From: Gammaproteobacteria bacterium
GTDB taxonomy: Bacteria > Pseudomonadota > Gammaproteobacteria > Steroidobacterales > Steroidobacteraceae
Direction: 5' to 3'
NCBI GenBank assembly: GCA_003164785.1
Contig: PLUE01000032.1
Span: 84,393 to 148,392, forward strand
Length of the DNA stretch: 64,000 bases
The notes beneath the pieces are model-generated. The model worked only from the letters and a program-made list of their open reading frames with translations, was not told where the DNA came from and searched no databases. The first letter of the stretch is position 1. Each line of letters starts with the position of its first letter. The translations under genes and the position numbers were made by a program. Positions 1 through 17,530 of this stretch are shown here, in pieces.

Positions 1-615
1 ATCGGCTCCCCGCCGTGCGAAAAGTCCGACCGTAACCACGCCGGCAATCTGATTGACCGCGGTCTCGAAGGCCACCGGGTCCGGAATCCTCAGGTGCACG
101 TCGAGAACGACGTTGCCGTTGTCCGTCACGACCCCCTGCCGCAGCACGGGCAGGCCGCCCAGTTTCACGAGTTCGCGAGCCACGTAGGACCTCGCCATCG
201 GTATCACCTCGACGGGCAAAGCGAAGGTGGAACCCAAGACCTCGACCAGTTTGCTGTCATCGATGATGCAGACGAACTTGGCGGACGCCGCCGCGACCAC
301 CTTCTCGCGTGTCAGGGCAGCCCCGCCCCCCTTGATGAGCATGCCATCGGCCGTCGCCTCGTCGGCACCGTCGATGTAGAGGCTAAGGTCGCCTTCCGAG
401 TTCAGATCCAGCTCCGGAATCCGCGCAATGCGCAGCGCGGCGGCGGTCTGATTGGAACTGGAGACCGCGCCTTTGAGCTGGATTTTACGGTCCTTCAGCA
501 CCTCGATGAGCTGATTGACCGTGGAGCCGGTGCCGATTCCCAGCACCATGCCTTCCTCGATGTAGACCATCGCGGCTTCTGCTGCGCGGCGCTTTTTCTC
601 GATTGATGATGAAAT
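1..615 (-). CDS. rpiA: Ribose-5-phosphate isomerase A (3' end cut by window edge)
   Basis: Interconverts ribose-5-phosphate and ribulose-5-phosphate in the cytoplasmic pentose phosphate pathway. Reading the minus strand gives GIGTGSTVN (phosphate loop), DGADE and [11 protein letters not shown], followed by a stretch ending [13 protein letters not shown], which aligns almost without gaps to E. coli RpiA. The last ~15 residues lie outside the window. The frame has no ATG, GTG or TTG between its upstream TAA and the first motif except an internal ATG at 570-568, which would remove the first helix. An ATT at 615-613, seven bases after AAGGGG (628-623), would give 25 residues before GIGTGS; E. coli has 24 before GVGTGS. 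I therefore favour the ATT start. The gene lies just after the terminator of the small basic peptide gene. Confidence 0.9.
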
Positions 616-627
616 TTTCCGACCCCT

Positions 628-661
628 TAAAACAACTGTGCCCGCTTACGCGGGCACAGTT
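628..661 (-). terminator. Rho-independent terminator of the small basic peptide gene
   Basis: A perfect 12-bp stem (AACTGTGCCCGC paired with GCGGGCACAGTT) with a 4-base loop spans 634-661 and is followed on the minus strand by GTTTTA. It sits 16 bases after the stop codon of the 21-codon gene. It probably ends most transcripts there, with some read-through into rpiA. The perfect stem would also fold when transcribed from the plus strand. Confidence 0.75.
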
Positions 662-677
662 GATTACTTTCGAAGGC

Positions 678-743
678 TTACTTTTTCTTAGCGGCCTTTT
701 TCTTTGCTACCTTCTTCTTCGCCTTCTTTGCTTTCGCTGCCAT
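678..743 (-). CDS. 21-residue Lys/Ala-rich basic peptide (histone-H1-tail-like)
   Basis: ATG at 743-741 opens a 21-codon frame made only of Met, Ala, Lys and one Val, with 12 Lys (starts MAAKAKKAKKK, ends in KKK, TAA stop). A GGAG ribosome binding site lies 8 bases upstream, a strong promoter-like pair lies ~40 bases upstream, and a perfect terminator hairpin follows directly, so it looks like a complete single-gene transcription unit. The composition resembles bacterial histone-H1-like tails that bind nucleic acids. It also resembles the tail of the SET-domain protein at 28.5-29.2 kb. No enzyme motif is possible at this size. Function is unknown: nucleic-acid binding or a ribosome/RNA-associated role is an inference from charge alone. 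Confidence 0.65.
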   Translation of the reverse strand: MAAKAKKAKKKVAKKKAAKKK

Positions 744-779
744 GATAGAAACTCCGTTATCGGGTTAGTCCGGGGTCCG

Positions 780-811
780 AGTATATACACGAAAAACAAA
801 TATACAAGCAA
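780..811 (-). promoter_or_regulatory. Sigma-70-type promoter of the small basic peptide gene
   Basis: On the minus strand TTGTAT (807-802), a 16-bp AT-rich spacer and TATACT (785-780) form a near-consensus promoter. An overlapping alternative is TTGCTT (811-806), 18 bp and TATATA (787-782). Either gives a leader of roughly 30 bases before the ATG at 743. The AT content stands out from the GC-rich surroundings. Confidence 0.6.
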
Positions 812-857: not shown

Positions 858-1322
858 TCACTCCAGCGTGAGAATGAAATCCCAATTCGTCTTCGTCACC
901 GGCGTCACCGACAATCGATTGCCGCGCTTCAGTACGATCAAGTCTTCGAGTGCCGTGGCCGCGTATTTGCGCAGCTCATCGAGTGTGATGATGCGCGAGA
1001 ACTTGCGCTGCAACTTCACGTCGACCACATACCAACGCGGGTCATCCGCCTTCGATTCCGCATCGAAGTGATCATGCGCCGGGTCGAAGGCGGTGGCATC
1101 CGGGTACCCGCTCCTGACCACGCTGACGATGCCGGCTATCCCCGGCACGGCGCAGCTCGAATGATAAAAGAACGCGGTATCGCCTTTTTTCATGGAGTCG
1201 CGAAGCATGTTCCGCGCCTGGTAATTGCGCACTCCGTCCCATGCGGTCGTGTGTTTGGGCCGGGCGGCGAGGTCATCGATGCTGAAGGTGGTCGGTTCGG
1301 ATTTCAGAAGCCAGTGATTCAT
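858..1322 (-). CDS. EVE (PUA-like) domain protein
   Basis: A 154-residue protein opening with MNHWLLKSEPTTFSIDDL, the hallmark N-terminus of EVE/thymocyte-nuclear-protein-1-like domains, followed by WDGVRNYQARNMLR, GDTAFFYHS, DPRWYVVDVKL and LVLKRGNRLSVTPVT. EVE domains are PUA-fold modules thought to bind modified bases in DNA or RNA; no enzyme activity is expected. The start at 1322 is chosen because it sits at the conserved MNHWLLKSEP; the frame extends further but with unrelated sequence. Its ATG overlaps the stop of the upstream 5-FCL gene (ATGA), so the two are translationally coupled. EVE next to 5-FCL is common in gammaproteobacteria. Confidence 0.9.
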   Translation of the reverse strand: MNHWLLKSEPTTFSIDDLAARPKHTTAWDGVRNYQARNMLRDSMKKGDTAFFYHSSCAVPGIAGIVSVVRSGYPDATAFDPAHDHFDAESKADDPRWYVVDVKLQRKFSRIITLDELRKYAATALEDLIVLKRGNRLSVTPVTKTNWDFILTLE

Positions 1323-1918: not shown

Positions 1919-2107
1919 GGCGCTACCCGCAAATGCCGTCTTGGACCGATGCTCCCGACCTGAGCATCAGGTGGGGCTAACTGCGGCAATTAAGGCTTTC
2001 CGCTCGGGGCGGACTTGCACAATGTTGCCGGCAAGCATAGGCCCCTGGGGTTTACAAATTAGGGTCAGGAGGTAATCCGATCCGCATCGCACACCGCAGG
2101 CAGCGCC
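1919..2107 (-). ncRNA. ssrS: 6S RNA
   Basis: A 189-nt candidate between zapA and 5-FCL, the standard location of ssrS. Its ends form a 12-bp closing stem (GGCGCTGCCTGC at 2107-2096 with GCGGGTAGCGCC at 1930-1919, G-U pairs allowed). The 5' region reads CCTGCGGTGTGCGA and CCTGACCC, as in Pseudomonas-type 6S RNA, and the 3' half carries GAGCGGAAAGCCTTAA, close to the E. coli GAGAAGCCTTAAAACTGC segment. 6S RNA mimics an open promoter and sequesters sigma-70 RNA polymerase in stationary phase. Exact ends are inferred from the stem. Confidence 0.87.
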
Positions 2108-15972: not shown

Positions 15973-16992
15973 CTAGGTGAGGCCTCCCGACCGCCACAAC
16001 ACCCAGATGCCGACGGCGAATATCCCATAGAACGAGCCGAACCAGGCAAGCCGTATCGGCGTCAACGCATTGCGTTTCAGCAGCAGCAGCAACCCCACGA
16101 TGGCCAGTGCGGTGATCGCCGCGGCCAGCGTGAGTGCGTGATCGAAGAGCCACGGTGTGAAGAAGAGTCCCAGCGCGGTGGGAATGGTGGCTTGAATCAT
16201 CATGGCGCCGCTGATGTTGGCGAGCGCAAGACGATGTTTGCCCTGTCGGATCCAGATGATGGCGTTCATGGTTTCCGGCAGTTCCGTGGCGACGGGGCTC
16301 AAGAGCAGCGCGACCACCGCGGAAGGCATGCCGAGCCAGGGGCCGACCACGGCCAGTTGACCGACGAAAACATGGGACGCGCCAAAAATGACCACCAGAG
16401 CGAGTGCGGTCTGGATGCCGGCGATGGCGGTGTGAGGAATCGCCTTTTTTGGCTGAAATTTGAGCGGTTCCATCTTGCCCTCGGCGGCGTCGCCGTCGGT
16501 GCGCATTTCCATCCAGGTATAGGCGGCGTAGGCCAGTAGAAACAGCCAGCCTAGCCAAGGCTTGATCGCGAACGCCATGAAGCCGAGGATGATCTTGCAG
16601 AGGAAGATCATCAGGAACCATCCTTGATCGCGGCTGAGCCGGCGGCAATTCAGGTCGATGGGTTGGCGCGCCAACTGGATTCGAGTGATCCACAACATGA
16701 CGCCCACCACCGGATACGCGACCGTGGCGAGCACGAGCGGACCGCCGAGGGCTGCTCCGACACCGATGTTCCTCGCGGCAGCATCGGAGCCGAACACGAC
16801 CGCGACGAACGTGACGACGCTTTCCGGCAGTGCCGTTCCGAACGCGGCAAGTACGGTGCCGACCGCGTTTTGGGAGACCCCCGCCTTGCGGCCGACCCAC
16901 TCGACTCCGTTGACGAAATACTCGCAGGCCCAGTAGATGCAGCCCGCGGCGAGGAGCAGGTCGGCGAATGCGACGATGATGGTCGAGTTCAA
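15973..16992 (-). CDS. Sodium/calcium exchanger family membrane protein (CaCA)
   Basis: A ~339-residue protein with about ten membrane spans and the two alpha repeats typical of cation/Ca2+ exchangers: VLAAFGTALPESVVTFVAV in the first half and LLLSPVATELPETMNAIIW in the second, each with the G/P-T-x-x-P-E core. Start TTG 16992 follows GAAGGA by six bases; a longer frame starting with TTG 17028 exists. Probably exports Ca2+ or another cation against H+ or Na+. It stands alone and faces the plus-strand MepK-like gene. Confidence 0.85.
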   Translation of the reverse strand: MNSTIIVAFADLLLAAGCIYWACEYFVNGVEWVGRKAGVSQNAVGTVLAAFGTALPESVVTFVAVVFGSDAAARNIGVGAALGGPLVLATVAYPVVGVMLWITRIQLARQPIDLNCRRLSRDQGWFLMIFLCKIILGFMAFAIKPWLGWLFLLAYAAYTWMEMRTDGDAAEGKMEPLKFQPKKAIPHTAIAGIQTALALVVIFGASHVFVGQLAVVGPWLGMPSAVVALLLSPVATELPETMNAIIWIRQGKHRLALANISGAMMIQATIPTALGLFFTPWLFDHALTLAAAITALAIVGLLLLLKRNALTPIRLAWFGSFYGIFAVGIWVLWRSGGLT

Positions 16993-17530
16993 GCGGAATC
17001 CTTCGGGGGCCGGACAGCGTGCAACCAATGACAGGATGCCTCGTCCGGCCCGGATGAGGATCGTGTCAATGGTCTCGCCAGGCCTTGCGGCTGATGCACC
17101 ATGGCCATGAGGGCCAAGTATGTTGATGCATCGACTCTCGAGTCCGAGAGGCGGCTACTCCCCAAAGAGGGTTGCAGGATATAACAGGGACGGGGACACG
17201 GGAAGCCGATTCCGCGGTCGCAAGGTGGGCTGTAATGTCCGCACGGCAGGACCGGTCTCATTGCATACAAGCCCGCCCAAGGAGTTCCCCTGTCCCGTCC
17301 AAAGACACAATGGTCGATAGACCGATCGTCCCTGCCCTGCCGGGGGCGTGATTCCCGCGACCGCCGTCTTCGCGGCGCTGCACATCCGGGTCTGGCAGGA
17401 GCATTCGCCGAAATTGGGAGATGCGCACATCCCAGGAGGCCGATTTGACGCAAAGCTGTGGCCTGACCCAAGGCAACCGGCCCGGTGCGCAGTTGCCGCC
17501 TGCCCGAGTTACCGCGCGAGAGGTTTTCCG
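16993..17530 (+). other. Gene-free stretch between exchanger and ParD-like gene
   Basis: No convincing coding sequence in 538 bp; the open frames here have no recognisable family and weak ribosome sites. It contains a perfect 6-bp hairpin (CTCTCG AGTC CGAGAG, 17135-17150) and a long imperfect palindrome (17187-17300, listed separately). The 3' end holds the leader of the ParD-like gene. The sequence looks like intergenic or decayed mobile DNA. Confidence 0.6.
17187..17300. repeat. Long imperfect palindrome (possible REP/MITE-like element)
   Basis: The left arm GGACGGGGACACGGGAA (17188-17204) matches the reverse complement of the right arm TTCCCCTGTCCCGTCC (17285-17300) with one gap and one mismatch. 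Further in, GGTGGGCT and TAATG on the left pair with CATTG and AGCCCGCC on the right. The whole 114 nt could fold into one branched hairpin. Such G/C-rich arms resemble REP/REPIN or MITE elements, but only one copy is in this window, so mobility is unproven. Confidence 0.45.

Follow-up and report, generated by a model that had tools for sequence, protein, structure and literature searches.

The window, i.e., the whole stretch of 64,000 nucleotides that was analyzed, carries on its minus strand, in this order, a 6S RNA, an ORF of 195 residues which we take to encode 5-formyl-THF cyclo-ligase, an EVE-domain gene, a small unit encoding a Lys/Ala peptide, and rpiA (Table 1). The peptide ORF is placed between the EVE-domain gene and rpiA. 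At the rpiA start used by relatives, neither ATG, GTG nor TTG is found in 4 of 17 sequences of the genus (the window's own, L001, as well as L002, L009 and L013), where ATT or ATC stands instead. These four may use a non-canonical start codon (in the window ATT at 613-615, minus strand) or, in the window, an internal ATG at position 570. Elsewhere in the window, a yybP-ykoY manganese riboswitch (RF00080; 17009-17175, minus strand) heads an ORF for a membrane protein of 351 residues (15973-17028, minus strand), which presumably resembles a relative of sodium/calcium exchangers and whose listed start is a TTG within the 3' end of the riboswitch.

Table 1 Features of the peptide unit and its neighbors in the window.
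Feature	Position	Strand	Remarks
6S RNA	1920..2105	-	RF00013; farther upstream of the peptide unit
EVE-domain protein gene	858..1322	-	PF01878, E 8e-52; upstream neighbor of the peptide unit, synteny anchor
Upstream conserved element TTGCTTGTAT	802..811	-	Possible -35 region
-10-like hexamer TATACT	780..785	-	ATACT invariant across 42 aligned sequences
Conserved mRNA leader	744..779	-	CGGACCCCGGACTAACCCGATAACGGAG... in the window; 95% mean pairwise identity at -37..-14 among 17 genus sequences
Shine-Dalgarno GGAG	752..755	-	8 nt 5' of the ATG; invariant across 42 aligned sequences
Lys/Ala peptide ORF	678..743	-	21 codons, MAAKAKKAKKKVAKKKAAKKK; position kept in relatives; synonymous-only allele differences among 17 identical peptides
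Perfect 13-bp hairpin with GUAA loop (633-662), then UUUU (629-632)	629..662	-	Probable intrinsic terminator; covariation in 48 sequences
rpiA (ribose-5-phosphate isomerase A)	1..615	-	NF001924, TIGR00021, PF06026; continues beyond the window edge

The peptide consists of 12 Lys, 7 Ala, 1 Val and 1 Met and contains neither proline nor any acidic residue, i.e., it has the Lys/Ala-rich, low-complexity make-up of H1-like tails. The ORF of 21 codons with 12 Lys and the GGAG site in front of it are both present as claimed in a preliminary description of this DNA. The same description called the promoter near-consensus, which is overstated, as a sigma-70 scan of positions 400-1600 found no promoter. 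The high expression suggested there is hypothetical, given a promoter that departs from the sigma-70 consensus. The element is conserved nonetheless (the promoter/leader alignment holds 42 of 50 distinct short units), and by this conservation we count promoter and leader as real despite the lack of a sigma-70 consensus. Candidates for the -35 hexamer are TTGCTT at 806-811, 20 bp from TATACT, and TTGTAT at 802-807, 16 bp from it; our guess for the transcript start is about 772-774 (minus strand). A sequence model restricted to promoter and leader, without any ORF column (R2), built from loci with short ORFs and having the window sequence in its training set, matches the window at 747-810 (minus strand, E 3e-19) and nothing further in the window's genome at E<=10. 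Downstream of the ORF, a perfect 12-bp terminator had been proposed. The perfect hairpin is indeed present and covaries, with a stem of 13 pairs instead of 12. It has a folding energy of -26.9 kcal/mol (z -7.4), its U tract is short, and a terminator scan lists it for the plus strand only.

To assess conservation, the EVE-domain gene was used as an anchor and detected in 51 of 60 genomes, among them that of the window. Within the window's genus there are 20 EVE loci (own genome included), and 18 of them have a complete ORF in place; the other two are incomplete, with L003 ending at a contig edge and L012 being interrupted by a run of N. The peptide is 21 residues long in all 18 complete copies, 17 of which encode the identical 21-mer, while L020 encodes a diverged variant. 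Among the 17 identical copies, allele differences, scored relative to the majority codon and not along a tree, were 15 synonymous versus 0 non-synonymous, and the 13 variable sites are all third positions, with AAA and AAG exchanging freely in the Lys codons. The chance of such a synonymous-only pattern lies between 3e-11 and 2e-9, depending on the transition bias assumed. L020 adds 11 non-synonymous and 1 synonymous difference (in total 16 synonymous versus 11) and keeps length and composition. The purely synonymous change among the 17 copies argues that the peptide is under selection. An ORF arising by chance in a conserved intergenic region would fit a peptide this short and of such low complexity, but its conserved place, frame and length together with the synonymous-only change rule this explanation out, and we assign it practically no probability. 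Judged by conservation, the tiny gene is real. The preliminary description had made its case for a self-contained gene dependent on conservation of frame, promoter and terminator in relatives. All three are conserved, as are leader and Shine-Dalgarno site.

The hairpin was examined in an alignment of 48 of the 56 hairpins found; seven with other loop lengths (L024, L029, L061, L064, L067, L075 and L092) and the near-identical L005 were omitted. In this set 98.8% of cells are paired, and 33 cells have both sides changed, versus 7.6 in shuffles, with 0 of 500 shuffles reaching as high a value. Double changes are seen in 5 pairs, a number that 20 of 500 shuffles reached as well. Since the search pattern for the hairpins prescribes the inner six pairs, only the outer six pairs provide free evidence. 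In at least 7 of the 50 short units (e.g., L024, L027, L029, L056, L067, L076 and L092), an additional, distinct inverted repeat follows the stop codon and precedes the terminator hairpin.

Mean pairwise identity was determined for the parts of the unit at 17 of the 20 genus loci, with L003, L004 and L012 omitted as cut or broken. It amounts to 0.87 for the promoter, 0.95 for the leader, 0.85 from the Shine-Dalgarno site to the ATG, 0.915 for the ORF, 0.74 after the stop codon and 0.926 for the hairpin, with 0.749 for the EVE end and 0.495 and 0.564 for the flanking spacers. No part of the unit is conserved as strongly as the leader, and both leader and hairpin exceed the ORF. This might reflect a scenario in which leader and hairpin act as RNA, i.e., as a small regulatory RNA, either alone or, in a dual-function RNA, together with a peptide. 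However, the synonymous-only change in the 17 copies indicates selection on the peptide, the fold of the window's leader is no more stable than that of shuffled sequences (z 0.81), and no Rfam family covers the unit at gathering score. We regard a regulatory RNA as unlikely, although RNA and peptide may both have a role.

The spread of the unit was followed with a sequence model, R1, which covers promoter, leader and ORF and whose training genomes are among the genomes searched. Within the family, R1 has a match in 197 of 217 genomes and in 112 of the 114 with at least 90% completeness and at most 5% contamination. When genomes were drawn evenly from the order, family members included, 269 of 296 matched. 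The weakest matches (e.g., G125, E 0.002) may reflect Lys-rich stretches only, and a second match in the window's genome (E 2e-4) is such a Lys-rich stretch and nothing more. At 40 out-of-family loci, taken from the higher-scoring among the R1 matches listed, TATA[CT] occurs within 75 nt in 40 of 40 (8.3% of random stretches), a count which is not independent, as the choice of start favored an upstream TATA; GGAG is present in 38 of them, and 38 have closed ORFs, of 20-164 residues. Twenty additional loci within the family all encode 14-30 residues, the shortest form being the 14-mer MAKKKAKKKAAKKK at L245. Over the order, the ORF at the EVE-rpiA place ranges from 14 to 195 residues with a repeat-like expansion. 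EVE-anchored loci carry short forms in the window's family and forms of 55-195 residues in most other families. Five of the loci with short forms (L054, L063, L067, L069 and L102) are from Steroidobacteraceae, which is presumably the window's family. KKK forms the C-terminus of all 50 distinct short peptides, which are free of Asp and Glu; Ala is swapped for Thr, Ser, Gly, Val or Pro in relatives. What is conserved is a run of positive charge, i.e., KKK blocks separated by Ala or one of these residues.

Most other families of the order that were sampled have a long K/A/T/R-rich "histone-H1-like" ORF at the EVE-rpiA place. These long ORFs of sister families (e.g., L031, L044 and L046) share place, strand and a similar make-up with the window gene, but exceed it in length about 3- to 9-fold and also contain Thr and Arg. 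When R2 was run on 32 loci located via EVE, 10 of the 22 long-form loci gave a match 0-31 nt upstream of the Lys-rich ORF (E values from 4e-8 to 3e-3), versus 0 of 10 negatives, at which rpiA but no Lys-rich ORF had been detected. No R2 match was obtained at the other 12 long-form loci, including all five without nearby rpiA; two of the 22 (L023 and L032) leave their contig, so that their full length is not visible. Based on the matches at 10 of 22 loci and none among the negatives, some long forms appear to share their promoter and leader with the short forms by descent, while others agree in place and make-up alone. For the ORF residues themselves, homology between short and long forms is unprovable at such low complexity, and the evidence consists of synteny and the R2 matches. 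The label "histone-H1-like" of the preliminary description holds in this sense, given the composition and the synteny with long Lys-rich ORFs, and the conserved place beside rpiA noted there is kept within the family, being more exactly the EVE-rpiA interval.

To trace the length change, an rpiA tree was used, in which 134 rows were reduced to 125 (75 short, 40 long and 10 without the ORF) by counting identical proteins once and dropping L012, whose ORF is broken by N. The short forms of one further family (f15) lie within a starred clade (97/90) that holds long forms, apart from the short forms of the window's family. This nesting among long forms implies that the length class changed more than once. 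The number of changes for the short class (11, at least 5 of them on starred branches) is inflated by L031, which sits on a very long branch and is probably misplaced. A change from long to short is favored, as long forms are spread over many families. Length also differs within one genus (107 residues at L037, 150 at L041), and L232, with 37 residues and a sister form of 141, may be a frameshifted or shortened copy. A protein search with one long form of 109 residues hit 13 of 60 genomes and missed most long forms at the place, which makes this search uninformative. The window's genome contains a second Lys-rich ORF (L254:1334-1684, plus strand, contig C69) of 116 residues, MAKKKSKAKRPG..., with an acidic P/S/E-rich tail; the R2 search of this genome found no mini-gene promoter/leader there.

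A short ORF that is rich in codons for a single amino acid and stands just ahead of rpiA, with a terminator-like hairpin behind it, has the layout of a leader peptide, in which translation through the Lys codons would control the hairpin and hence rpiA transcription. The long forms speak against such an attenuator, as sister families have ORFs of up to 195 residues there, some behind a homologous promoter and leader. Likewise, the free exchange of AAA and AAG does not fit, and no competing antiterminator appears in the minimum-energy fold of one sequence. At five distant loci (L073, L081, L094, L105 and L108) EVE has a long Lys-rich gene downstream and rpiA is absent within 2.7 kb, although R2 matches none of the five, so that they are only putatively the same gene. 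One of them, in Thiohalophilus thiocyanatoxydans DSM 16326 (L105), is a K/A/T-rich ORF of 120 residues on the same strand as EVE, as at similar loci; it differs in lying 805 nt from EVE with no rpiA within 3 kb, and its kinship with the window gene is putative. Moreover, we know of no lysine link of rpiA. Taken as a whole, we consider attenuation of rpiA highly improbable.

Searches against known systems were negative. Pfam and NCBIfam profiles gave no match at E<=1 for the 21-mer, for two relatives of 24 and 27 residues or for one 109-residue long form. In the PDB, a phmmer search with the 21-mer returned no chain of any kind at E<=1, which is a weak test for a low-complexity peptide of this length. 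Tiny, highly basic ribosomal proteins such as bL37 and bS22 are site-specific chains of the ribosome. Size and charge of the window peptide, its near-universality in the family and its fixed length in the genus would agree with a ribosome-associated protein of this sort (a small ribosomal or assembly protein like bL37, bS22 or THX at a defined rRNA site), but the length range and repeat-like expansion at the locus over the order, a make-up of almost only Lys and Ala, and the lack of a PDB match argue against it. We regard a ribosomal role as unlikely.

In open-access literature, the titles and opening lines of abstracts among the matches listed do not describe the unit, and concern AlgP, Hc2 and further proteins that are either long or unrelated. 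The algP gene is located at a different locus. In AlgP (AlgR3) of Pseudomonas aeruginosa, the C-terminal domain is, like the window peptide, a Lys/Ala-rich H1-like tail, which is predicted to be disordered; fragments of this tail and KPAA peptides bind DNA, and AlgP localizes to polyphosphate granules (PMC9239181). Unlike the window peptide, AlgP has a helical N-terminal part of 124 residues and proline-containing KPAA repeats (PMC9239181), neither of which occurs in an ORF of 21 codons without proline. The chlamydial DNA-binding protein Hc2 (hctB) is likewise Lys-rich and has a variable length of 165-237 residues, differing by lysine-rich pentamers (PMC2848022); it is about ten times longer than the window peptide, which has no profile match. 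We regard the window gene as a miniature form of H1-like proteins.

In our assessment, the unit is probably a monocistronic small-protein gene with its own promoter/leader and terminator, encoding a miniaturized form of the histone-H1-like Lys/Ala proteins that are specific to this locus. Its product would be a 21-residue polycation, presumably disordered, which most likely binds loosely and electrostatically to nucleoid DNA, RNA or a different polyanion, e.g., polyphosphate, in a mode likened to the Lys-rich tails of H1 and AlgP. Here we infer that the gene is expressed and how strongly, that the peptide is disordered, what it binds and that shortening left its activity the same. Several observations weigh against this polycation reading. 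In the absence of any Pfam, NCBIfam or PDB match, the term "H1-like" would rest on composition and synteny. The mini peptide is not the sole such protein of the genome, given the 116-residue Lys-rich ORF; the ORF-free model misses 12 of 22 long-form loci, and L020 has 11 non-synonymous differences. The conservation of the leader above that of the ORF is hinting at a regulatory or RNA role beyond an H1-like protein.

More tentatively, the whole family could have cut an H1-like chromatin/RNA polycation down to a free-standing peptide of 14-30 residues, among the smallest such proteins known to us, and a second family could have done so separately. The strict leader might then mark a special control of polycation dose, perhaps post-transcriptional (CsrA-like) or dual-function.

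Genes this short fall under the usual gene-calling limits, and low-complexity filters tend to hide such peptides. If translated, the ORF would be a near-universal gene of a bacterial family. The natural length series from 14 to 195 residues at one place also poses the question of how little of an H1-like tail suffices for cellular function, and why some clades keep its length constant while it drifts in others.
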